From Thermodesulfovibrionia bacterium (GTDB lineage: Bacteria; Nitrospirota; Thermodesulfovibrionia; UBA6902), in assembly GCA_020053105.1 (NCBI GenBank), contig JAGVNU010000085.1:62001-126000 (forward strand): a stretch of 64,000 nt of DNA, written 5' to 3'. Made by a program: the position numbers and the translations under genes. Shown here piece after piece: positions 6,969 through 27,943 of this stretch. The notes under the pieces are model-generated. The model worked only from the letters and a program-made list of their open reading frames with translations. It was not told the DNA's origin and did not search any database. Numbering within the stretch: the stretch's first letter is position 1; every line of letters begins with the position of its first letter.

Positions 6969-7420
6969 CATCAGACAACGCGATAATCAGCATACTTCAG
7001 GAGCAGATTAAGACCTACAAGGAGTTTCATGATCTCCTGAAGAGGGAAAGGGCATGTCTTGTCAAGATTGATTCAGAAAAGGTCGATGAGATATCAAAAG
7101 TAAAAGACACGGTCATTATGAAATTGAGACTGCTGGAAGAAGAAAGACAGCGATTAATAAAAAAGTATGCCGAGGACAATGGGTTTGAAACGGATATAAA
7201 CCTCGACAAGATGGGGCAGTTGACAGGAAACATTGCATTCCATGAAATGCGTTCGCAGCTTCTGTCTCTGCTTCAGGGTATAGAAGAAATGAACAGGTTT
7301 AACTCTATTCTTATAGACCGGTCTCTTAATCATATAAAGACCACTACTAATTTTTTCAATCTGTTCAAGAAAGAACAAAGCCCGAATTCTACGGGTGTTC
7401 TTTTATCAAAGGAGACATAA
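6965..7420 (+). CDS. flgN: FlgN-type export chaperone for FlgK and FlgL
   Basis: 151 aa, all-helical, with heptad-rich helices (ISILQEQIKTYKEFHDLLKRERACLVKIDSEKVDEISKVKDTVIMKLRLLEEERQRL) typical of FlgN. It is placed exactly between flgM and flgK, its usual site, overlapping flgM by 4 nt and ending on the base before the flgK start. It is a cytoplasmic chaperone that delivers the hook-filament junction proteins to the export gate. Sequence conservation in this family is low, so the call leans on position and helical pattern. Confidence 0.88.
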   Translation: MTSDNAIISILQEQIKTYKEFHDLLKRERACLVKIDSEKVDEISKVKDTVIMKLRLLEEERQRLIKKYAEDNGFETDINLDKMGQLTGNIAFHEMRSQLLSLLQGIEEMNRFNSILIDRSLNHIKTTTNFFNLFKKEQSPNSTGVLLSKET

Positions 7421-9043
7421 GTGTCGCTTTCAGGACTTTTTGATATAGGCAAATCAGCTATCTTTGCCAGCCAGACCGCACTAAACGTTGTCAGCAATAA
7501 CATAGCCAATGTCAATACCCCGGGCTACAGCAGACATGAAGCGATTCTTGAAGTTGCCAACCCGGTCCAGATAAAGGGGAACTATATAGGCAGGGGAGTA
7601 GGGAATGTTGATATAAGAAGACACTACGATAATTTTATCCACCTTCAGATTATCGGACAGAATCAGAGTTACGGCAGGTCTTTTGCGCTTGAGCGCGGGT
7701 TAAGCCATATTGAGCAGATATTCAATGAGGCCAAAAACCTGGGTTTGGGAAATTCTCTGAAGGACTATTTTAATGCCTGGCAGGACCTTGCAAACAATCC
7801 TGAGGCACAGCCTCAAAGAACGGTCCTGCTGCAGAAGGCAAATGCATTGGTCCAGACAGCTAAGCAAATGGAAGAAGACACTCTGGATACGCTGAAGGAA
7901 ATCAATAACGATATCGGCAATGTTGTAAATGATATTAATTCACTAACATCTAATATTGCAGTATTAAACGAGAAGATATCTCAGTTGGAGGCCGGGCTCA
8001 GCACGGATGATGCCAGTTATTTCAGGGACCAAAGGGACAGTAGTCTGAATGATCTTGCCGAACTTATGGATTATACCTGGTATGAAGACAATAGCGGTCG
8101 TGTAGAGATTCTTGCCGGAGGTGAAAGTCTTGTAAACCTGCAGGGATCAACTTCTCTTTCCACAGAAATTGATATAGATGGACACAGAAATATATATGCG
8201 AGGGGCAGAGATATAACATCAGTGTTTCAGGAAGGTCAGCTTGGGGGATTTATTGATGTCAGGAGTGATATTGAGACTAACTCTTTGCATGATCTAAGGA
8301 AGCTCATAGCTTCAATATCAAATGAAACGAATATCCTTCACCGTACGGGTTACGGGCTTGATGGTTCAACTAGTAATGACTTTTTTGATGCATTACAGAT
8401 TTATAGCAGTGATGATTCGGCAGCAGGATATGTCTCATCGGCCACTGTAAGCGATGTTGCGGCTCTTACTCTTGACGAATATGACATTAACTTTGTCGAT
8501 GCGGCAAATTACGAAGTATATAACCATCAAACCGGCGCGCTGGTTACATCAGGAGCTTATACTGCTGGGAACACTATCAGTTTTGAGGGGATCGATGTTG
8601 TAATTGACGGTGCCCCTGCAGCGGATGACACCTTTTTAATCAGTCCGCTTAGTGAAGTAATTACTAATTTTGATGTAGCCTTAACAGATACGCAGAAGAT
8701 AGCCGCGGCTTCTTCGAATCTAAATCTTCCCGGTGATAATACTAAAGCGTTGGAGATGGTGCAGTTATCTCAAGATGATGTTACAGAACTGAGCAATGCT
8801 ACATTTGAAGGGTATTACAACGGGATTGTTTCCGATATCGGCATTATGAGCAAAGCTGCCTCGGACAGTCTTACATATGATGACAATCTGCGTTTCGAAC
8901 TGGAAAAGAAAAGGGACGAGGTGTCAGGGGTGTCCCTGGATGAAGAGGCAGCCAACCTTATCAGGTATCAACGTATGTATGAAGCCGGGGCAAAAATTAT
9001 TAAAATAACAGATGAACTTATGGAGATGATAATTAACTTATGA
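7421..9043 (+). CDS. flgK: Hook-filament junction protein FlgK (HAP1)
   Basis: 540 aa, GTG start preceded by AAAGGAG. The N-terminus (SLSGLFDIGKSAIFASQTALNVVSNNIANVNTPGYSR) and C-terminus (VSGVSLDEEAANLIRYQRMYEAGAKIIKITDELMEMIINL) are strong FlgK signatures. A middle insert (about residues 330-410) with the motif ANYEVYNHQTGALVTSGAYTAGN is the surface-exposed FlgK subdomain. It forms the first junction zone between hook and filament. The 4-nt overlap with flgL suggests coupled translation. Confidence 0.96.
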   Translation: MSLSGLFDIGKSAIFASQTALNVVSNNIANVNTPGYSRHEAILEVANPVQIKGNYIGRGVGNVDIRRHYDNFIHLQIIGQNQSYGRSFALERGLSHIEQIFNEAKNLGLGNSLKDYFNAWQDLANNPEAQPQRTVLLQKANALVQTAKQMEEDTLDTLKEINNDIGNVVNDINSLTSNIAVLNEKISQLEAGLSTDDASYFRDQRDSSLNDLAELMDYTWYEDNSGRVEILAGGESLVNLQGSTSLSTEIDIDGHRNIYARGRDITSVFQEGQLGGFIDVRSDIETNSLHDLRKLIASISNETNILHRTGYGLDGSTSNDFFDALQIYSSDDSAAGYVSSATVSDVAALTLDEYDINFVDAANYEVYNHQTGALVTSGAYTAGNTISFEGIDVVIDGAPAADDTFLISPLSEVITNFDVALTDTQKIAAASSNLNLPGDNTKALEMVQLSQDDVTELSNATFEGYYNGIVSDIGIMSKAASDSLTYDDNLRFELEKKRDEVSGVSLDEEAANLIRYQRMYEAGAKIIKITDELMEMIINL

Positions 9044-9915
9044 GGATTACAACCTTCACAATATTTAATCAACTTGTTAGGTCGGTTAATGACAATTTAA
9101 GGTCCCTGTCCAAGTCTAACAATGAACTTTCAACGGGGAAAAAAATTAACAACCCTTCAGACGATGTATCAGGTATGATGAAGGTTATGGACTATAAGGT
9201 GAGTATCAATGAGATTGAGCAATATAAGCGGAATATTGATGAGGCTGAAGCGCATCTGGGTTTCGCCGATACAACCATGTCGACTGTTACAGCTGTACTT
9301 GATAAAGCAAGGGAGCTTGCTGTTCTAGGGGCTTCAGGCGCGGCTGAAAGAGATAAAGCTGCATCAGAAGTCGCCCAGTTAAGAGACCAATTGACCAGCT
9401 TGGCTAACAGCAAATTCAGGAACAAATATATCTTTTCGGGATATGCAACCGACACACAATCATTTGACGCGGGGTTCATCTATCAGGGTGACTCAGGCGA
9501 GATTAATGTAATGACTGACAGTAGTGCGACTGTGGCGATGAATATTCCCGGTGATCAGGTATTCAGTTCAGGTGGTGACACATATATGAAAACTCTTGAT
9601 AATTTTTATAATGCTCTAATGGATCCCGACAGTGAGCCAGCGGACATATCAGCATTTATTGATGAATTCGAGAATGCGCTTGATCAGGTAGCAAATGTCC
9701 GCGCTGATATTGGTGGAAGACTAAACAATCTTGAAGACCGCAAAAGTAATCTGGAGGACAGGAATTTTACGTTAAAAACGTATCTCTCGGAAGTCGAAGA
9801 TACTGATCTTGCGAGCACAATAAGCGAAATATCAAAAACAGAAGTGGCTCTTCAGTCACTGAGACAATCAGGTGCGCAGGTTTTATCACAGTCGTTGCTG
9901 GATTTCTTAAAGTAA
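9040..9915 (+). CDS. flgL: Hook-filament junction protein FlgL (HAP3)
   Basis: 291 aa, flagellin-like at both ends. The N-terminus has LRSLSKSNNELSTGKKINNPSDDVSGMMKVMDYKVSINEIEQYKRNIDEAE. The KYIFSGYATDTQSF motif near residue 130 is typical of FlgL. The C-terminal helix ends TEVALQSLRQSGAQVLSQSLLDFLK. It forms the second junction layer on which flagellin polymerises. It is the last gene of the flgM operon; a hairpin-like sequence follows before csrA. Confidence 0.95.
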   Translation: MRITTFTIFNQLVRSVNDNLRSLSKSNNELSTGKKINNPSDDVSGMMKVMDYKVSINEIEQYKRNIDEAEAHLGFADTTMSTVTAVLDKARELAVLGASGAAERDKAASEVAQLRDQLTSLANSKFRNKYIFSGYATDTQSFDAGFIYQGDSGEINVMTDSSATVAMNIPGDQVFSSGGDTYMKTLDNFYNALMDPDSEPADISAFIDEFENALDQVANVRADIGGRLNNLEDRKSNLEDRNFTLKTYLSEVEDTDLASTISEISKTEVALQSLRQSGAQVLSQSLLDFLK

Positions 9916-9919
9916 AAAA

Positions 9920-9971
9920 AGGGATTAGGTATTGTAGATGGGATCAGTTTTTTTCTGAACCCATAATCCCT
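9920..9971 (+). terminator. Imperfect hairpin between flgL and csrA
   Basis: ATGGGATCAG (9938-9947) pairs with CTGAACCCAT (9955-9964) with one A-A mismatch around a loop of seven T residues. Outer arms AGGGATTA (9920-9927) and TAATCCCT (9964-9971) can extend or compete with it. No T-tract follows, so it may be a weak terminator, attenuator or mRNA-end stabiliser. Confidence 0.4.
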
Positions 9972-9993
9972 GATCACCGAAGAAGGAGGCAGG

Positions 9994-10224
9994 ATGCTGG
10001 TATTGACAAGGAAGTCAGATGAATCGATTAAACTCGGCGATGATATCACTATTACAATCGTAGAGGTAAAAGGAAATTCTGTAAGGCTGGGAATAGAGGC
10101 CCCTTCAGGTCTGAGGATATACAGAAAAGAATTATACGAAAAGATTAAAGAAGAAAATTACAGGGCATCAAATCTCTTCATGGACGAATTTGCAAAAATC
10201 AATAAAGCGTTGAGGTCAAAATGA
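9994..10224 (+). CDS. csrA: Carbon storage regulator CsrA
   Basis: 76 aa RNA-binding regulator. The N-terminus MLVLTRKSDESIKLGDDITITIVEVKGNSVRLGIEAPSGLRIYRKELYEKI is the full CsrA fold, including the RNA-contacting first strand (LTRK) and the second RNA-binding strand with its conserved Arg (GLRIYRKELY). The C-terminal tail (about 22 residues) is longer than in E. coli, as in FliW-regulated CsrA proteins. It starts behind GAAGGAGG and overlaps fliW by 4 nt. Its expected target is the flagellin leader immediately downstream, where four AAGGA cores occur. Confidence 0.97.
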   Translation: MLVLTRKSDESIKLGDDITITIVEVKGNSVRLGIEAPSGLRIYRKELYEKIKEENYRASNLFMDEFAKINKALRSK

Positions 10225-10631
10225 TAAAGTTAAATACTTCAAGATTCGGCTTACTGGAAGTTAAGGAAGAAAAGATCATTAATTTCCCATCGGGTCTCGT
10301 AGGCCTGCCAAGTCTTAACAAGTTCATTCTAATAGACCACAAAGATACCCCGCTTAAATGGCTGCAGGCCATAGATGATCCTGACATAGCGTTTATCGTT
10401 GTCTCGCCTTCGTTAATTATTGCGGAGTATTCCCTGGACCTGGATAAATCAGTAAAACAATATATTCAACTTGAAAATGAAGATGACCTTGCCGTGCTTG
10501 TGACCATGAGAGTGAATGGAGAAGATGTAATTGCCAACTTTCAGGGCCCTATAGTTATTAACTCCCGTGCCATGAAAGGTGTCCAGGTGGTATTGGACCG
10601 GCCTGGTAAATCATCTCAGGTAGTAGTATAG
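10221..10631 (+). CDS. fliW: Flagellar assembly factor FliW, CsrA antagonist
   Basis: 136 aa. It has the FliW signature FPSGLVGLPSLNKFILIDHKDTPLKWLQAIDDPDIAFIVVSP (about residues 23-64) and the family ending RAMKGVQVVLDRPGKSSQVVV. In Bacillus FliW binds CsrA and flagellin in exclusive complexes, linking flagellin secretion to flagellin translation. Translation is probably coupled to csrA by the ATGA overlap. The gene lies directly upstream of fliC, so the three partners are contiguous. Confidence 0.95.
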   Translation: MIKLNTSRFGLLEVKEEKIINFPSGLVGLPSLNKFILIDHKDTPLKWLQAIDDPDIAFIVVSPSLIIAEYSLDLDKSVKQYIQLENEDDLAVLVTMRVNGEDVIANFQGPIVINSRAMKGVQVVLDRPGKSSQVVV

Positions 10632-10812
10632 GTAACTCCTCTTTCCTCGTTTTATCGATTATTGACCCACCCCTTCATTTTACATCGTGCTTTATACCCA
10701 CACTGGCTTAAAAAGATCCAGATGACGTCATTATATTTATCCTGTCTTAGCGACTGATTAGAGTGAAGTTACCATCTTCCTTGAATTGGAAAAAATATTT
10801 ACAACTATTTAC

Positions 10813-10839
10813 TAAAGTTTTATTTAAGCGTGCCGATAT
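10813..10839 (+). promoter_or_regulatory. Sigma-28 promoter for fliC
   Basis: TAAAGTTT at 10813-10820 is a perfect -35 match; 11 nt follow, then GCCGATAT at 10832-10839 (7 of 8). Predicted start of transcription is near 10846, giving a leader of about 220 nt before the fliC ATG. The 180 bp between fliW and this promoter hold no other feature I can support. Confidence 0.88.
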
Positions 10840-10880
10840 ATTACTTAAAGGAAATAAAGGTGCTGGTCAAGAAAGGAGTG

Positions 10881-10943
10881 ATGATGAATAATTGGAGTGT
10901 AAAAGCAGCAAAACTGCCAGGGCGCTTCAATGAAATGACCTAA
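10881..10943 (+). CDS. Leader ORF in the fliC 5' untranslated region, 20 aa
   Basis: A double ATG (ATGATG) at 10881 follows AAAGGAG with near-ideal spacing and opens a 20-codon frame ending TAA at 10943, beginning MMNNWSVKAAKLPGR. It lies wholly inside the predicted fliC leader, before two hairpins. Its ribosome binding site contains an AAGGA core. It could be a leader peptide whose translation influences downstream folding, or a chance ORF. The strong site is the main evidence. Confidence 0.45.
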   Translation: MMNNWSVKAAKLPGRFNEMT

Positions 10944-11064: not shown

Positions 11065-11913
11065 ATGGGTTTAATAGTTAACACAAATCTTCTCTCTCTG
11101 AATGCTCAGAGAAACATCAAGAACACTCAAACCGGCCTCGGATCAGCAGTTGAAAGATTATCTTCAGGACTTCGGATCAATTCAGCAAAAGATGATGCTG
11201 CAGGAATGGCCATCTCGATGAAATTGACTGCTCATGTCAGAAGTTTAAACCAGGCTGTAAGAAATGCACAGGATGGTATCTCTATTGTGCAGACCGCAGA
11301 AGGCGGGATGAATGAAGTTCACAATATCCTTACCAGGATGAGAGAGCTTTCTCAGCAGGCCGCTACCGGCGTGTTGGCAACTTCCGATAGAGCAGCTCTG
11401 AACCAGGAGTTCCAGGACCTCAAGAGTGAAATTACGAGAATTTCCGACACTACAGAATTCAACGGTTTGAAACTGTTAGACGGATCTCTGAGCGCCGCCG
11501 GGGTATCATTACAGGTTGGTATAAATAATTCTGCAAATGACAGGATTGCGGTCAGTGGAGGGTCATTCGGAGATATTGATGCAGCATCCCTCGGACTTAA
11601 CGCGGCAGGTGTATCAAGTATTGATAATGTAACATCCGCACAGTCAATGTTGACTGTGGTTGACAGTGCTATCGGAACAGTTTCTACAAGAAGAGGTAAT
11701 TTGGGCGCTGTTCAGAACAGGCTTGGAAGTACCATTTCAAACCTTGAGATTGCAGCTGAGAACCTGTCAGCAGCTAATTCAAGAATTAAGGACGCTGATT
11801 TCGCAATTGAAACAGCAAACCTTACAAGGAGCCAGATAATACTGCAGGCTGGAGTTGCCGTTCTTTCACAGGCAAATACAATTCCGCAGTATGCTCTCCA
11901 GTTATTGTCGTAA
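11065..11913 (+). CDS. fliC: Flagellin FliC
   Basis: 282 aa, a minimal flagellin. The conserved D0/D1 N-terminus (MGLIVNTNLLSLNAQRNIKNTQTGLGSAVERLSSGLRINSAKDDAAGMAIS) and C-terminus (SNLEIAAENLSAANSRIKDADFAIETANLTRSQIILQAGVAVLSQANTIPQYALQLLS) make up most of the protein. The variable outer region is very short (about residues 165-200), so surface variation probably depends on glycosylation, for which large enzymes are encoded downstream. It is expressed from a sigma-28 promoter with a regulated leader and followed by a strong hairpin. Confidence 0.97.
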   Translation: MGLIVNTNLLSLNAQRNIKNTQTGLGSAVERLSSGLRINSAKDDAAGMAISMKLTAHVRSLNQAVRNAQDGISIVQTAEGGMNEVHNILTRMRELSQQAATGVLATSDRAALNQEFQDLKSEITRISDTTEFNGLKLLDGSLSAAGVSLQVGINNSANDRIAVSGGSFGDIDAASLGLNAAGVSSIDNVTSAQSMLTVVDSAIGTVSTRRGNLGAVQNRLGSTISNLEIAAENLSAANSRIKDADFAIETANLTRSQIILQAGVAVLSQANTIPQYALQLLS

Positions 11914-19920: not shown

Positions 19921-20143
19921 AAAATGCCTGGACGATTTCAGATATAATTCCCCGTTTCGCATCTACTGTATTTGCCTTGCCTGAGGCATCTATCTTCTCA
20001 ATATCATTCAAATAGAATTGCAATTATATAAAACAGATCCACGATAAATTAAAGTAAATAATTAAATTGTCGTAATAGAAAATACCAGACACAGGTTTCG
20101 GCCTGATAATTAGTGGGAATTGATAAAAAGTATGGAGAGTAAA

Positions 20144-21145
20144 ATGACATTATGGAAAAGCATATTCCTGTTATGCATTTTTTTGCTTGCAGCATTATAC
20201 GGCTGTGAAACATTGAAATCGTCAAAGGCATTAATACCGATTAAAGAGTATGAAAGGATGCTGGTCGGCCGGATTGATGCCAATTATATAGGAACTGACC
20301 GCTGTCTTTCAGCATGCCACTCCCATGACAGGATAAGACGTGATTTCGAGGCGAGTACTATGGGCGTTCAAATGTCAGGCCAGTCTAATATGCCGCAGGT
20401 CAACTGTGAATCATGCCACGGTCCCGGCAGTCTTGCCGTGGAGAATGTAACTCCTGAACTTGTGGCCAAAGACGCTGCAGAAGCAAAAGAGACGGCATGT
20501 AAGTATGATACCTTTATCGATCTTAAAAACCTGCCTTCACAGGCGAAATCACTGCTGTGCCTGAGATGCCATTCTGAAAACGCGACCCTTAATCTTCACA
20601 ACTGGAATGCCGGAGCGCATGCACTGAGTGATGTTTCATGCTTTGACTGTCACAACGTGCATGCGGGCCCGAGTCTGATAACACAGCCGAAAGACACGAG
20701 GGATATGTGTCTGAAATGTCATCAGCAGCAGGCCGCGGAATTTTCGCTTCCGAGCCGCCATCCCCTCATGGAGAAAAAAATCTTCTGTACGGACTGCCAT
20801 GACCCTCATGGCACGGCAGGCGAAGGTTTATTAAAAGAGGATACACTGAAGGAAACGTGTACCCGCTGTCACGGGGAAAAAGAAGGACCTTACGCCTTTG
20901 AGCACGCTGACATAAATGATGACTGCGCCGCATGTCACAGCCCTCACGGCTCGGTCAATAACAATCTTCTTATAGTCAGGGAGCCTTTCCTTTGCCTGCA
21001 GTGTCATCAGGGGCATACTACTACAGACGATGCATCGACCAGGGTGTCAAAAGGCGCATATTACACTCGCTGCACCGATTGTCATTCACAGATACACGGC
21101 TCTGACCTGCCGTCTGCAAGCGGAAAGGGCATGTTCATAAATTAG
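20144..21145 (+). CDS. Decahaem c-type cytochrome lipoprotein, MtrA/DmsE-like
   Basis: 333 aa from ATG 20144 (GGAGAG upstream; in-frame TTG 20120 and ATG 20132 are less well placed). The signal segment ends in a lipobox (LYGC, Cys21). Nine CXXCH motifs plus one CX3CH (CLSACH, the first) give ten potential haems. The pattern of paired sites with distal His resembles MtrA, DmsE and PioA, which carry electrons through an outer-membrane barrel; the next gene encodes such a barrel. The lipobox predicts lipid anchoring, unlike Shewanella MtrA. No substrate can be deduced; extracellular iron or another insoluble acceptor or donor is an inference. Confidence 0.85.
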   Translation: MTLWKSIFLLCIFLLAALYGCETLKSSKALIPIKEYERMLVGRIDANYIGTDRCLSACHSHDRIRRDFEASTMGVQMSGQSNMPQVNCESCHGPGSLAVENVTPELVAKDAAEAKETACKYDTFIDLKNLPSQAKSLLCLRCHSENATLNLHNWNAGAHALSDVSCFDCHNVHAGPSLITQPKDTRDMCLKCHQQQAAEFSLPSRHPLMEKKIFCTDCHDPHGTAGEGLLKEDTLKETCTRCHGEKEGPYAFEHADINDDCAACHSPHGSVNNNLLIVREPFLCLQCHQGHTTTDDASTRVSKGAYYTRCTDCHSQIHGSDLPSASGKGMFIN

Positions 21146-21159
21146 ACATGAGGGCATAT

Positions 21160-23130
21160 ATGAGAAAAATAATATATTTAATGGTCCTGTCATTGTGCAT
21201 CATAAATAAAGGGTATGCCACCCAGGAAGACGACGATCTGAAACTTCTCGAGGAATTGGGGATTGCAGCGGAAGAGCCGGTCGAATATAAATATCCTGAT
21301 GTAGAACCTGAGGCAAACCTGTTTCTCGGCTACAGATTCATTGATACAAGCGGGCAGGAGCAGGGCTTCGAATATGAATATCTCAACGATTCCCCTGTGA
21401 TCGGAGGAGAGTACAGGTTATTTAACTATCCGCACAGGCTGCATGCAGACCTTGACCTTAAAAGTCATAAGGACTACCACGGGGATATTTTCTATGCTTA
21501 TGGGGACCTTTTTCTTACACGATGGGTTGACAACACGATCTTTCATAATCTGGATAATATTGAACTGATCAGCCCGGACCCCTCATCATCAACTTACAGG
21601 ATTGACCGTAAGGATGAGGACAAAGAATACGGAGTACGGACCGGCATGCACAGTTTACTACTGAGATTGAAAACCCCTGATTTCCCCGCCCACGCCTATT
21701 TCAGGGCATACCACGTTGAAAAGACCGGAGACTTCCAGCAGAGAAGCCTTTTGGGTTCCGGATATTACAATGATATTGAGCGCGCCACGCAGGAGAGGAA
21801 GATCAAATGGATGACAGGGACTTACGAAGTGGGTGCGAACAGCCATCTCGGACATGCCGACATTGAGATTTCACATATTGAAAAAAGGTTTGATGCAAAG
21901 GGCGATGACGTTATATTTGACTCATACGGGCCGAGCCTGCACCATCTGTCGGGAGGCACATTCCCGCATAATCAGATGCCTGAGCTTAAGGGCTCTGCAA
22001 ATGTAATAAAGGTCCATTCCAATTACAATGAAAGTGTCGTAGCGTCAGCTACTTTTTCCCTGAAAGAAAAAGAGAACAAGACGAGCGGAGCAAAGGCCGA
22101 CATATTCCACGCAGCCGGGTCTGTTCAATGGACACCACTGACGAGACTGACTTTCTTTATGAGGTATTTCCACACTGATACTGAAACGGACAATCCCGGC
22201 ACGGCGTCTATAACCGACGTAAACGGTAATGTGACGAACTACCCGGGGACAGTTAAGCCGTCTGTATCAAAGACTACCGATGCGATATCTGTTACCGGAA
22301 GGTACAACCCCGAACCGGGCGTAACGCTGAAGGTCAAATATTTATTCGAGAACACGGACAGGGACAATGCAGATGATTGGAATCTTAAGGAAACAACCAG
22401 GAAGAACACACTGGCATTATCTGCGGCCCTGAGGGTAATTAAGGGATTGGACCTTAGAACGGAATACGTTCACAAATCGATAGTCAAACCGTCATACAGC
22501 ACAGAGCCGGACTCTCTGGACAAAGGCACAGCGTCGATTTCCCTGACTCCTGTCCCGGGAGTAAACCTGTTTGTGAATTACATCATCTCCCGGGAGAAAA
22601 GGGAGGACCTGGATTTTTCAGAGACAGCGGATGCCAGGGACAGAAACACAAGGACTGATAACCTGATGGGAAGCGGCGTGTTTCGGCTGATGGACAACCT
22701 TTCAATGACAGCAGGCTATGCTTATATGCATTACAGGGTCAGACAGGATATTGTGTACGGTGATGTTCCAGTAATTGACAAGGATGTTCAGTACAAAGAC
22801 ATGGCCCATGTCTATTCAGCGTCACTTGATTACGCGCCGGTTGAAGAACTGAATATACTTGCGATTGTCACCCATGTGAGAAGCGCCGGTGATTTCTACC
22901 CCGGGAGCGCGGACCTGTTGAACCCTGTCTCGATATCATCATTCAGCAAACAGAAAATCAGGGAGACCGTTTACAGCCTGACCGGAGATTCTGAATGCAT
23001 GAACAGTCTTTCCTGCGGACTGGAATTATCCTACAGTGAAACAAGGGACGTCATTGATAATGATAACGACAGTAATCCTAACGGACATGCATATATAGTT
23101 ATGCTGAAATTCAGGAAGAAGCTGGAGTGA
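21160..23130 (+). CDS. MtrB/PioB-type outer-membrane beta-barrel
   Basis: 656 aa from ATG 21160 (GAGG six bases upstream; ATG 21148 is in frame). The signal peptide ends near NKGYA. After an acidic linker the body shows alternating hydrophobic strands and polar turns throughout (for example PEANLFLGYRFIDTSG, GVTLKVKYLFENTDRDNADDWN, LSMTAGYAYMHYRV), the pattern of a large barrel. The MtrB-like call rests on this, its size, and its position 14 nt after a decahaem MtrA-like gene. The N-terminal CXXC of Shewanella MtrB is absent. It would sheath the cytochrome and connect periplasm to surface. Confidence 0.78.
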   Translation: MRKIIYLMVLSLCIINKGYATQEDDDLKLLEELGIAAEEPVEYKYPDVEPEANLFLGYRFIDTSGQEQGFEYEYLNDSPVIGGEYRLFNYPHRLHADLDLKSHKDYHGDIFYAYGDLFLTRWVDNTIFHNLDNIELISPDPSSSTYRIDRKDEDKEYGVRTGMHSLLLRLKTPDFPAHAYFRAYHVEKTGDFQQRSLLGSGYYNDIERATQERKIKWMTGTYEVGANSHLGHADIEISHIEKRFDAKGDDVIFDSYGPSLHHLSGGTFPHNQMPELKGSANVIKVHSNYNESVVASATFSLKEKENKTSGAKADIFHAAGSVQWTPLTRLTFFMRYFHTDTETDNPGTASITDVNGNVTNYPGTVKPSVSKTTDAISVTGRYNPEPGVTLKVKYLFENTDRDNADDWNLKETTRKNTLALSAALRVIKGLDLRTEYVHKSIVKPSYSTEPDSLDKGTASISLTPVPGVNLFVNYIISREKREDLDFSETADARDRNTRTDNLMGSGVFRLMDNLSMTAGYAYMHYRVRQDIVYGDVPVIDKDVQYKDMAHVYSASLDYAPVEELNILAIVTHVRSAGDFYPGSADLLNPVSISSFSKQKIRETVYSLTGDSECMNSLSCGLELSYSETRDVIDNDNDSNPNGHAYIVMLKFRKKLE

Positions 23131-23137
23131 GATCAGA

Positions 23138-24037
23138 TTGAAAAGAAATATTTTATTTATAACGGTTGCGCTGGTCCTTATGGTTTTTGTTCAGCCTGCG
23201 TTTGCGAAAATCGTGGGCGTAATCATGACGGCTGACATAGATTACTACAGGAACATACATAAAGCCTTCACTGACGACATGGGAAAAGATGTCGAGATAG
23301 TGCTGCAGAAACCGACTCCAGACCCTATGTCATGGACCAATGCCGTACGTAAACTTACAGGCATAGGCGCGAGCGTGATTGTATGCTACGGGGCCCCAGC
23401 TACCCTGACCGCAATGAAGGAGACATCTGACATACCTATTATCTTCGCCGGTGTCTACGATCCTGATTCCATGAATATTTCAGGGAAGAACGCTGCTGGA
23501 GTAGCTTCGACCGTCCCGATAGATAAAATCATCAAGTCTCTGAACGAAATAAAGAAGATTTCAAAAATGGGAGTTATTTTCAGCAAGTCCGAGAAGGACA
23601 CCATCATCCAGGTGCGGGACATAAAAAAGAACGAGGGTCCAATGGGCTTCCAGTCTGTTTTGATAAGCGTCTCGGACAAGGTAAATAAAGATGAAATAAA
23701 GGGCGTCGACGCGCTTCTTGTCACAACATGCGCAGCCGGTATGTCAAATATCAAAGATATTATTGAAGCTGCCCGCAGAGACAAAATCCCGACCGCCACA
23801 TTGATAGGAGGCGGTGAGGACGGAGGCATCCTTTTGACGATCATGGCGGACCCGAAGGAGCAGGGTTCGGCAGCGGCTGAAATGGTAAAAAAAGTGCTTG
23901 CAGGCGCAAAGCCGGCGGAGCTGAAGGTCAAACAACCTAACATTATAAAAACCATTGTCAATATGAAAGAGGCAAAAGCGCTGGGACTTGTTGTCCCGTC
24001 CGGTGTATCGGGTTCAGCGGACAAGGTAATACAGTAG
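23138..24037 (+). CDS. Orphan ABC-type substrate-binding protein (ABC_sub_bind/TrpX-like)
   Basis: 299 aa, TTG start 7 nt after the barrel gene, with a signal peptide ending VQPAFA. The fold matches the ABC_sub_bind family: GVIMTADIDYYRNIHKAFTDDM, ASVIVCYGAPATLTAMKETSDIPIIFAGVYDP, then IPTATLIGGGEDGGILLTIMADPKEQGSAAAEMVKKVLAG. No permease or ATPase gene is near. A periplasmic ligand-sensing role is therefore as likely as transport, especially with a chemoreceptor gene in the same array. The ligand is unknown; relatives bind tryptophan or other small molecules. Confidence 0.82.
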   Translation: MKRNILFITVALVLMVFVQPAFAKIVGVIMTADIDYYRNIHKAFTDDMGKDVEIVLQKPTPDPMSWTNAVRKLTGIGASVIVCYGAPATLTAMKETSDIPIIFAGVYDPDSMNISGKNAAGVASTVPIDKIIKSLNEIKKISKMGVIFSKSEKDTIIQVRDIKKNEGPMGFQSVLISVSDKVNKDEIKGVDALLVTTCAAGMSNIKDIIEAARRDKIPTATLIGGGEDGGILLTIMADPKEQGSAAAEMVKKVLAGAKPAELKVKQPNIIKTIVNMKEAKALGLVVPSGVSGSADKVIQ

Positions 24038-24094
24038 ATGGAAAGGTTACTTAATACAGAGACTCGGCATTACAGTTGTAAGGGAGACAAGTTT

Positions 24095-26401
24095 ATGAAA
24101 ATGTCCGGACTGTCAGGATTAATTATATTTTTTATCGCCACGTCGGTATTACTAGGCTGTGGCGGGGGTGGCGGAGGAGGAAGCAATGGAGGCGCATCAA
24201 ACAGCACAGCACACAGCATTACAGACTGCTACGGCTGCCATGCTGATGGATTAATAGCAAAATATGCTGATGAGAATATTTTTTCAGAATGGCGTGACAG
24301 CGCGCATGGAAACTACGAAGGAACAAATTACGCCGGCAGTCCGGCCTATGATGATTTAACGGACACCACCTGTAATTCATGTCATGACGATAGAGGGGAC
24401 GGAGAGCTTCTTGAAGATTACTACAATACTACAGGCATAAGCTTTATGGGTACAGTGAACAGACCTCTTGTGGGATGTGAAAGCTGTCACGGCTCCGGAG
24501 ACACGCACTTCGGGGTAGGCCAGATGCAGTATCCCGACCCTGATGCAAGCATATGCGGAAATTGTCATAAAGAGGACAGTTACCATGCAGAAGAAAATCC
24601 GGAAGGTGATGGTATATATGAAGCATACCAGTCATCACCTCATGCAGGTCCTGTAAGCGAGGAGGCATACGCGGACGGAAGCACAACGGACGCCCAGGCA
24701 AAATGCTCAAAGTGTCATACGGATGAAGGCGCAAGGCTTTATAAAGAGATATCAGGAGGATATGATGAGCTTGAGGCGGCCGCCTACAGCACTGACCCTG
24801 TTGCGGATGTCAATGCCGTTCAATGCCGTACATGTCATGACGCGCATGACACGTCAAAGCTTCTTAAACCTGCCGGAGAAGGCACCTCAGCCGAGTATGA
24901 GACATGCACGGCCTGCCATCAGAATGAAGATGACAGTTATCATGGAACAAATAATCCGGAATTTGATGCCGCAGATACAACGAGGACCATTTATGACACC
25001 CATTTTGACAATGATGCCACAAATAATATAGAAGGTTATATTATTGACAAATCAAGCGACAGGGCCTGCTCTGACTGCCATAACCCGCATGATGCGAATA
25101 ACGGGCTTAATGATGAATGGGCCAATTCTGCTCATGGCGGACATATTCTGCAGACCATAGACGTAACCGGCAAGGCTGACGTTGCCGAGAAGCCGTGGAT
25201 GGAGTATAACTGGAAAGGGTCTGACAGACAGGCCTGTCATAGGTGCCATACTGCTACCGGATTCAAGAATTATGCGGACGCCTCTGCAACATATGATCCT
25301 GTGAATAACGTGTTTGCAGCTGCAACAGGAGTACAGAAAGAGATGCTGTATTGCTGGGGTTGCCATACGAATAATGTGGGGGGACTTAGAAGTCCCGGAT
25401 CTTACGTGTCACCGCGTTATATAGCTGGAACGGCAACAGTGGTAAATGGTTCAGCAACGGTATCCGGAACCGGAACGACTTGGAACTCAACCAATACACC
25501 GGTGGGGAGCCTGTTCCAGGTCAGCGGAGATTCCACAATTAACATCGTTAAAACAATTAATACAACAACGCAGATTACATTGAATTCAGTCTATGCCGGC
25601 GCGAGCGCTTCTAATGTCAACTATTCTATTTCGACATATATCGTTCCGACGGGCCGCTCAGTCGATCCTGGAACTGAAGGGTCCACTATATGCGTGTCCT
25701 GTCATTCAGGAAGACAGACAGGTGAGTTCATTAAAAATTACCCTGTAGCTTTAACCGGTAAAAACTTCGGGAGCTTCAACTCACATTACCTCGCTGCCGG
25801 AGCAATCATGTTCAGGACCATTGGTTATGAATATACAGGTCTTGACTACAGTAATGATATCAGCTTTATTCACGATACGATTGGAACAACAGGCGGCAGT
25901 GATGGCGATAACGGTCCCTGCGTAGGCTGCCATATGAAGACTGATGAGAGCCACTCATTTGAAGTTGTCGAAGGAGATCTAGGCGCAGTGACGGATATAA
26001 GGGCATATACAAATGTATGCTCCGGCTGTCACGGGAATAAGGCGACCCTGATATCAACTCTGAACACCAGAGACACCCAGTATAATGCCGCTCTCAGCGC
26101 ACTCGATGCACAGTTGCAGGGCAAGGGAATTTACTGGTGCGTCAACTATCCATATTTTAAAAGTGCGGCTGCCTGTGGCGGAGGGTTTTACACGGCCTGG
26201 CCGGATAAAGACACACTTGGAGCAGCGTTCAACTATAATCTTCTGAAAAATATTCCTGCCGCATATGTTCACAACCGGGAATATACGCGGAAACTTATTT
26301 ATGACAGTATTGATTTCCTTGACAACGGGGCGCTTGATACATCAGTTGAGGCGACCCTTGTGTCTGGCGACGCATATGACTATCTTAATGGCACAAGATA
26401 A
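24095..26401 (+). CDS. Thirteen-haem surface lipoprotein cytochrome with a phage-tail-like insert
   Basis: 768 aa from ATG 24095 (AGGGAG upstream; ATG 24038 abuts the previous stop but lacks a site). The lipobox is LLGC followed by a glycine run. I count thirteen CXXCH motifs, from CYGCH near residue 44 to CSGCH near 655. Between motifs ten and eleven (DNA 25420-25635) is a haem-free beta-rich segment with the pattern GTATVVNGSATVSGTGTTW then TTQITLNSVYAGASASNVNYSI, resembling modules of phage tail proteins. In this context it is the likely outer-surface partner of the MtrA/B-like conduit, analogous to MtrC or Geobacter OmcB. Confidence 0.85.
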   Translation: MKMSGLSGLIIFFIATSVLLGCGGGGGGGSNGGASNSTAHSITDCYGCHADGLIAKYADENIFSEWRDSAHGNYEGTNYAGSPAYDDLTDTTCNSCHDDRGDGELLEDYYNTTGISFMGTVNRPLVGCESCHGSGDTHFGVGQMQYPDPDASICGNCHKEDSYHAEENPEGDGIYEAYQSSPHAGPVSEEAYADGSTTDAQAKCSKCHTDEGARLYKEISGGYDELEAAAYSTDPVADVNAVQCRTCHDAHDTSKLLKPAGEGTSAEYETCTACHQNEDDSYHGTNNPEFDAADTTRTIYDTHFDNDATNNIEGYIIDKSSDRACSDCHNPHDANNGLNDEWANSAHGGHILQTIDVTGKADVAEKPWMEYNWKGSDRQACHRCHTATGFKNYADASATYDPVNNVFAAATGVQKEMLYCWGCHTNNVGGLRSPGSYVSPRYIAGTATVVNGSATVSGTGTTWNSTNTPVGSLFQVSGDSTINIVKTINTTTQITLNSVYAGASASNVNYSISTYIVPTGRSVDPGTEGSTICVSCHSGRQTGEFIKNYPVALTGKNFGSFNSHYLAAGAIMFRTIGYEYTGLDYSNDISFIHDTIGTTGGSDGDNGPCVGCHMKTDESHSFEVVEGDLGAVTDIRAYTNVCSGCHGNKATLISTLNTRDTQYNAALSALDAQLQGKGIYWCVNYPYFKSAAACGGGFYTAWPDKDTLGAAFNYNLLKNIPAAYVHNREYTRKLIYDSIDFLDNGALDTSVEATLVSGDAYDYLNGTR

Positions 26402-26446
26402 TGAAAGTTTTAATTAAAAATAAAAAATCAGTTTAAGAGGTGCTCC

Positions 26447-27943
26447 ATGTATAAGAACAGTTCGATAAGTAAAAAATTTCTCCTGCCGGTGCTGGCCATG
26501 TCCGCGGTCATGTTTTGCGCCCTCGGTATATTTATGGTCATGAAGAACAAGGCTGCAATAATGACAATGATGGAATCAAAAGGCCAGTCCGTGGCCGGTT
26601 TTGTGGGCAATGTGTCGGCGGACTACTTCGCCATCTTTGACTTTAACGATTACGAAAAATTTGTAAAGGCGCTGCAGAGTGATCCCGAAGTAGCGTTTGC
26701 CGTTTTTTACAATAATAAAATGGAACCGCTGACCAGTATCGAAAAGCTGCCCAAGGACACCTCTTCTTTAATGGTGTATGAACGCGAGATCAAAGACGAG
26801 AGCGGGAGCGTGCTCGGTCATGTCAAGATAGGTTATAAAAGAGAACAATTGAACAGAAACATCAACAACAACATAATCATCATTGCCGCCGCTATGGTTA
26901 CGATGCTGGTGCTCTTTACTGCAGGCATCATAATGCTTGTCCGTAACATAATCATCAGACGGGTGAAGGCCACAGTGGAGATGTTCAAAGAGATTGCACA
27001 GGGTGACGGGGACCTGACAAAGCGTCTCTATGTAGACAGTGATGATGAACTGGGCGAGATGGGTAAGTGGTTCAATGTTTTTATGGACAATCTGAGGGAA
27101 ATAGTCGCCACTGTACAGGTCAACTCCGAAAGGGTCTCGGTGGCAAGTACCGAACTTTCCATGACCGCTGAGGCCTTAAGTGTAGGCTCGCTCGAGCAGA
27201 GGTCGCAGACCGAACAGGTGGCTTCGGCAATGGCCGAGATGACCCAGAGCATAACGGGCGTTGTTAATAATGCGAGCGAGACCTCGGAAGCTTCAAGAGA
27301 GGCGTCGGCCATCGCCGGCCAAGGGAAGGAAGTTGTCGAGAGGACGGTGACGGGCATGGAGAAGATAGCAGTTACCGTTAAGGAAACTTCCGAAATCATC
27401 GAGAAACTGGGTAAAAGCTCAGATGAGATCGGCAGCATCCTGAATGTCATCAATGATATCGCCGGACAGACCAATCTTCTTGCTCTCAACGCCGCGATTG
27501 AGGCGGCCCGTGCCGGTGAGCACGGGAGGGGTTTTGCAGTAGTGGCCGATGAGGTCAAGAAGCTCGCTGACAGTACCGGTAAAGCAACTAAAGAGATAGC
27601 GGAGATGATAAAGAAGATACAGGCTGATGCCGAAAAATCGGTGCACTCCATGTATGCAGGCAGAGAGGAAGTTGAGAACGGCGTGAAACTTGCCGAAGAG
27701 GCCAAAAAAGCGCTGGACATGATCGTAAGCGCGTCAGAAAAGGCGGCCACCAACGTTCATTTGATATCGAGGGCCGCCGAGGAGCAGTCGGTAAGCACCG
27801 AGAGGGTCACGCAGAATATGGAGAGCATCCTGACAGTTTCTCATCAGTCCACTGACGGGACCAAACAGATAAAACTGGCTTCGGATGAACTTGAAAAACT
27901 GTCAATAGAGCTCCACAGCAAGATAGGATTGTTTAAAGTATAA
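26447..27943 (+). CDS. Methyl-accepting chemotaxis protein
   Basis: 498 aa transmembrane chemoreceptor. TM1 is at residues about 12-32, a short periplasmic sensor domain of roughly 110 residues follows, TM2 lies near 145-168, and HAMP spans about 170-222. The signalling hairpin tip ([38 protein letters not shown]) is near residues 338-376. The sensor begins [40 protein letters not shown], which looks like a small Cache/PAS-like domain. It lies 45 nt after the 13-haem cytochrome with GAGGTG upstream, probably in the same operon. No che genes are nearby. Confidence 0.93.

Follow-up and report, generated by a model that had tools for sequence, protein, structure and literature searches.

The stretch of DNA analysed here (the window) comprises 64,000 nucleotides (nt) of contig JAGVNU010000085.1 from Thermodesulfovibrionia bacterium (GCA_020053105.1), a draft Nitrospirota genome of 3.27 Mb in 124 contigs that is 83% complete. 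Five genes at positions 20144-27943, all intact and all on the + strand, place a predicted extracellular electron conduit next to an orphan periplasmic binding protein and a methyl-accepting chemotaxis protein (MCP):

20144-21145, + strand: MtrA/DmsE-type periplasmic decahaem cytochrome with the lipobox LYGC (TIGR03508, 250 bits, cut-off 192)
21148-23130, + strand: divergent MtrB/PioB-like outer-membrane beta-barrel porin (PF11854, 32.8 bits, cut-off 23)
23138-24037, + strand: orphan periplasmic binding protein, ABC_sub_bind, with a Sec signal peptide (PF04392, 88.6 bits, cut-off 25.9)
24095-26401, + strand, in a reading frame open from 24038: 13-haem outer-surface-type lipoprotein with the lipobox LLGC, a Gly-rich tether and 13 CxxCH motifs (MtrC/MtrF domain PF22113, 71.6 bits)
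26447-27943, + strand: MCP with a first transmembrane helix, a periplasmic sCache-like sensor of about 105 residues, a second transmembrane helix, HAMP (PF00672, 43.5 bits) and the MCP signal domain (PF00015, 163 bits)

The genes run in the order decahaem lipoprotein, barrel, binding protein, 13-haem lipoprotein and MCP. The intergenic gaps are 2, 7, 57 and 45 nt from 5' to 3', and no terminator-like sites were found on the + strand within any of the four. An earlier note on this DNA had described a same-strand run of five genes with gaps of at most 57 nt, including a binding protein without a transporter. Both descriptions hold, no transporter genes adjoining the PF04392 gene. In the gene order given there, the binding protein wrongly follows the 13-haem gene; its actual place is between that gene and the barrel.

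The arrangement recurs far outside the window. Behind the conduit genes of Nitrospirota and some related bacteria there is almost always a gene for a binding protein, together with one for either an MCP or a sensor kinase predicted to carry haem. Full-length orthologues of the cytochrome (57-89% identical) were found in about a quarter of the genomes of 61 relatives. From a scan of 85,000 species genomes with the cytochrome, the best 80 of 215 relatives were taken, most of them from Nitrospirota and some from Desulfobulbaceae and other deltaproteobacterial metagenome-assembled genomes (MAGs). These and further loci were scanned in six frames with profiles; transducers were called by small custom profiles, with examples checked against Pfam. 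The counts below refer to 70 distinct orthologous loci, those in which 5.2 kb or more of sequence lay downstream.

Across these loci the order is nearly fixed: cytochrome, barrel, binding protein and then a signal transducer. The binding protein is present in 65 loci, and 62 possess both the binding protein and a transducer. With 11 MCP signalling domains in the 3.27 Mb of the host genome, an MCP beside any given gene should be rare by chance; nonetheless, such a neighbour recurs at 43 of the 70 loci. The 13-haem gene lies in between in seven of these, as in the window, and the MCP is upstream in two. The other 19 loci with a transducer encode a histidine kinase and, as a second binding protein, one of PhnD type. 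Three loci (L056, L080 and L132) have the binding protein without an adjacent MCP or kinase, five have neither binding protein nor transducer, and none of the 70 has a transducer without the binding protein. The two components are thus present or absent jointly (Fisher p 5e-6, a value that ignores relatedness among the loci). The MtrA tree shows clusters of MCP-type and of kinase-type loci and few switches between the two. The state lacking the binding protein requires four changes on this tree and so arose more than once. In 27 of the loci listed, the binding-protein gene overlaps the next gene by exactly 4 nt, an arrangement typical of translational coupling, which it may reflect here. Genome G055 carries a conduit without binding protein or transducer at L077 and a trio of binding protein, PhnD-type protein and kinase at L164.

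The same distribution bears on the possibility that the conduit uses the binding protein as an accessory, either an assembly factor or a shuttle carrier, with the MCP or kinase only loosely associated. Its gene directly follows the barrel in nearly all loci, and the three loci without an adjacent transducer would agree with such a role. Nevertheless, this explanation is very improbable: each of the five loci without the binding protein is also without the transducer, and where there is no conduit the binding protein is still found with the PhnD-type protein and the kinase.

The genes also travel together. In the sister genome G003, the five-gene block fills 8.0 kb and is flanked by an HDOD-type and a crcB-like gene (gene names assigned by eye from the sequence). 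On contig C84 of the host genome, these flanks are colinear with those of G003 at 79-85% nucleotide identity and are separated by only 90 nt, while the five genes are found elsewhere, beside flagellar genes. The filled site in G003 and the empty site in the host genome indicate that the five genes were relocated together as one cassette. All five are under purifying selection, with dN/dS of 0.06-0.15. The flagellar cluster of the window matches G003 colinearly as far as about 18.2 kb and again from about 50.0 kb. The intervening stretch of about 32 kb, which holds TamA/TamB and other genes besides the conduit block, is missing from the colinear flagellar region in G003 and G004; its GC content is 0.46-0.52 and that of the flanks 0.41-0.45. 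According to the earlier note, random separation of the binding protein and MCP from the cytochromes in related genomes would have undone the functional link. This was not seen: order is kept, loss is joint and the block moves whole. The coupling of conduit, binding-protein and transducer genes is well supported.

In the window cytochrome, the haem sites are nine CxxCH and one CxxxCH (CLSACH). The latter is the first haem site of the protein, and its Cys-Cys-His is invariant in 16 of the 16 aligned orthologues. The cytochrome does not belong to the GSU2203-family decahaem proteins, scoring 238 bits with NF041028 (cut-off 325). A DmsEFABGH extracellular dimethyl sulfoxide reductase locus was rejected, there being no molybdopterin DmsAB genes among the annotated neighbours. 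The barrel fails the TIGR03509 subfamily (22.9 bits, cut-off 240); in HHalign, its profile matches bona fide PF11854 barrels with a probability of 92% and E 5e-7. The 13-haem lipoprotein has no match to TIGR03507 (OmcA/MtrC family) and cannot be classed as an OmcA/MtrC surface decahaem protein. Among the loci profiled, its gene is restricted to the clade of the window and to L061 and L063. In another Nitrospirota clade (L096, L098, L107, L111, L113, L115, L189), an 8-10-haem relative is encoded upstream of the cytochrome, not downstream of the binding protein. To judge by their families, the MtrA-like cytochrome, the 13-haem lipoprotein and the barrel would together make up a porin-cytochrome conduit; any direction assigned to the electron flow through it is presumptive.

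In its AlphaFold2 model (pLDDT 90), the window protein looks like a periplasmic binding protein of the tryptophan type, with a type I periplasmic-binding fold. The structures closest to the model are 3lft with bound L-Trp (TM-score 0.85), 3lkv and CD0873. LuxP, the ribose-binding protein and the TorT side of TorS-TorT are more distant matches (TM-score about 0.5-0.6). An assignment as the binding protein of a TrpX tryptophan transporter was rejected (NF041285, 83.7 bits against 390), and no ABC permease or ATPase adjoins the gene. Two other PF04392 genes occur in the host genome, one adjoining a hybrid histidine kinase and the other fused to a PAS/HisKA_2 kinase; it follows that the family serves signalling in this organism. 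No ABC transporter was found beside the window block or beside either of these two genes.

Relatives of the binding protein occur in 120 of the 396 Nitrospirota genomes searched. Among the 40 neighbourhoods read, members of the close clade either follow a conduit or belong to a stand-alone trio of binding protein, PhnD-type protein and kinase; none of the 12 loci with such a trio is part of a transporter operon. In the binding-protein tree, the MCP-paired members of the close clade are linked to a conduit in 44 of 44 cases. At L199 (G205), a reading frame at about 7084-10899 encodes 1271 residues, apparently an ABC permease fused to three PF04392-like stretches, and is followed by an ABC ATPase gene. 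In L164, L172, L173, L175, L177 and L203, a TrpE-type gene precedes the stand-alone trio at a distance of no more than tens of nt. The chorismate-binding/anthranilate synthase I domains of this gene were confirmed in L164. Such a neighbour hints at an aromatic or chorismate-derived ligand.

The TrpE-type neighbours and the amino-acid-type proteins among the nearest solved relatives (3lft with L-Trp, CD0873) could reflect a shared ecology only. The binding protein and MCP would then serve ordinary chemotaxis towards a soluble aromatic nutrient, e.g. an aromatic amino acid, being co-expressed with the electron-transfer genes without functional contact between them. However, a plain nutrient sensor would not be likely to accompany a conduit in two phyla, and the MCP-paired binding protein occurs with the conduit and not elsewhere. 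Moreover, a redox or gas input is suggested by the other transducer, a predicted haem-c kinase. The shared-ecology explanation is therefore considered unlikely, although some weight has to be left to it.

The kinases that replace the MCP in other lineages form one family:

L040:11218-13182, L041:10908-12749, L164, L170-L178, L191, L202 and others: CxxCHH histidine kinases, encoded after the PhnD-type and PF04392 binding-protein genes

Between the first and second transmembrane helices, these kinases have a periplasmic stretch of about 145 residues with CxxCHH and several other invariant residues. The motif is invariant in 30 of the 30 full-length kinases encoded downstream of a PhnD-type gene, with or without a conduit. 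Motifs of the CxxCHH type are the signature of covalently bound periplasmic haem c in c-type cytochromes. Because this motif is invariant in the sensor domain, the module kinase is predicted to carry a periplasmic c-haem and, by the same token, to sense the redox state or a haem ligand. No Pfam family gave a convincing match to the sensor stretch, and the DUF3365/Tll0287 haem-Cache family was rejected, there being no Pfam match. The CxxCHH histidine kinases are predicted to be a new family of haem-c sensor kinases.

The predicted periplasmic c-haem would also suit a conduit that is mainly a redox antenna. Electrons would pass between the outside and a periplasmic sensor, either the haem kinase or the binding protein with the MCP, and the conduit would not be a respiratory route. 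Most loci carry MtrA, barrel and transducer but no surface cytochrome gene, and the window barrel is the sole PF11854 porin found in the 83%-complete genome. On the other hand, a surface-type lipoprotein with 13 haems is encoded in the window locus, haem motifs are absent from the MCP branch, and in five loci the conduit occurs with no transducer at all. Furthermore, MtrAB-like pairs without a surface cytochrome (PioAB/MtoAB) respire in known Fe(II) oxidisers. A mainly sensory conduit thus has a low probability. A weaker version, in which the conduit clade in Nitrospirota and Desulfobacterota is at least partly sensory, is still doubtful. Electrons passing through MtrA and the barrel would set a periplasmic relay (the binding protein and, in one branch, the haem-c kinase) that is read by the chemoreceptor or kinase. 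If so, the cell would taste the redox potential of solids outside.

The window locus is probably best understood as an extracellular electron-transfer operon with its own sensory branch, in which the binding protein acts as a co-receptor and not as a transport subunit. The PF04392 protein would bind a small molecule or possibly dock at the conduit, and its state would be presented to the sensor domain of the neighbouring MCP, which would signal through CheA to the flagella. In other lineages, the conduit and binding protein would be wired to the PhnD-type protein and the predicted c-haem kinase, the output being gene expression and not movement. Relays between a binding protein and a transducer are known from MBP-Tar, RBP-Trg and TorT-TorS. 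The genetic basis of this reading lies in which genes are present, in their order and conservation, in joint loss, in movement as one unit and in purifying selection, to which the modelled fold of the binding protein is added; complex formation, the ligand and a swimming response are presumed from it. Since the MCP is replaced by the predicted c-haem kinase in other lineages, taxis is one of two outputs of the module.

The MCP itself is assigned by its signalling domain, HAMP and the two transmembrane helices flanking the sensor. The match to sCache_3_3 is 14 bits and below the cut-off; at least two MCPs of related loci are sCache-type. The MCP orthologues are 65-93% identical. Two consecutive MCP genes follow the binding protein in L088, L092, L096, L098, L111 and L044.

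Several points weigh against the operon with a sensory branch. A CxxCH haem motif was found in none of 61 MCP segments. The structure model of the window MCP is of low confidence (mean pLDDT 67, sensor region 33-73) and was not used for a fold search. Locus L056, from the same genus, has kept the conduit and binding protein and lost the 13-haem gene and the MCP. Most of the loci come from MAGs and are mutually related; the five-gene locus L063 is labelled Desulfobulbaceae and could be transferred or misbinned. Finally, a sigma-28-like site before mtrA, picked out post hoc, is suggestive only:

20050-20076, + strand: candidate flagellar sigma-28-type promoter (TAAAGTAA-N11-GTCGTAAT), 94 nt upstream of the start codon of mtrA (10.1 bits, shuffle p about 0.07)

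Comparable sites are located at -97 to -100 in L054, L056 and L117. Scores are good within the clade of the window, but as general support the promoter was rejected, MCP-type loci overall scoring no higher than kinase-type ones (medians 3.9 and 4.6 bits, p 0.80). A near-perfect sigma-28 promoter (15/16, TAAAGTTT-N11-GCCGATAT) is located at 10813-10839, 252 nt before the flagellin gene at 11065. Upstream of the window mtrA, no Rfam leader RNA was matched at E 5. A leader element is single at this position and tandemly duplicated in the sister genome (L054, about -190 to -74 before mtrA).

The earlier note had proposed that the cell senses the ligand or redox state of the acceptor and swims accordingly. 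The genetic coupling behind this proposal is real. With no haem motif in its sensor domain, the MCP gives no indication of sensing redox state directly, and ligand sensing via the binding protein would be the simpler reading. Energy taxis is an extrapolation from the gene arrangement and one of several possible behaviours.

The means by which bacteria locate insoluble electron acceptors or donors are still an open question, and the known cases, Shewanella congregation and Geobacter Esn, rest on unlinked genes. The block described here joins conduit, candidate co-receptor and transducer and is conserved across a phylum and beyond, so that partners, ligand and response become directly testable. 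With its predicted haem-c kinases, the other branch gives a further entry point to the study of cell-surface redox sensing. Cells with such a module probably steer or regulate themselves by whatever the conduit connects to, a predicted link between external electron transfer and behaviour.

No published description of a locus with conduit, binding protein and MCP was found in the literature searched, in which subscription journals are poorly covered, so that absence is not proven. The MtrCAB, PioAB, MtoAB and Ext conduits share with the window the decahaem periplasmic cytochrome, the MtrB/PioB-like barrel, the surface multihaem lipoprotein and the adjacency of these genes. The window differs in a barrel far under the TIGR03509 cut-off, in a cytochrome that is a lipoprotein with one CxxxCH, and in the binding protein and MCP or kinase within the locus. 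TorT-TorS, LuxP-LuxQ, MBP-Tar and RBP-Trg have a periplasmic binding protein as co-receptor of a transmembrane transducer, the role proposed here. Unlike them, the window protein belongs to PF04392, resembles them at a TM-score of only about 0.5-0.6 and is coupled to an electron conduit. The sCache_heme proteins (DUF3365/Tll0287; PMC12889525) resemble the module kinases in having a covalent haem-c motif in the periplasmic sensor of a signal transducer, whereas the CxxCHH domain has no match to that Pfam family.

Shewanella congregation at minerals requires mtrBC/omcA and the Cache MCP SO_2240 (PMC5789149). In this form of energy taxis, an outer-membrane conduit and a chemoreceptor likewise serve one behaviour, but the MCP gene lies away from the conduit genes and a binding protein plays no part, whereas in the window all components stand in one operon-like block. 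In Geobacter, the esnABCD MCP pathway matters on electrodes (PMC5585712), so that MCP-CheA signalling similarly affects the interaction with an extracellular acceptor; EsnA, however, is a GAF-type MCP unlinked to a conduit operon and has no orphan binding protein. Neither study describes a conduit operon with its own receptor and binding protein, and in this respect the block in the window appears to be new.

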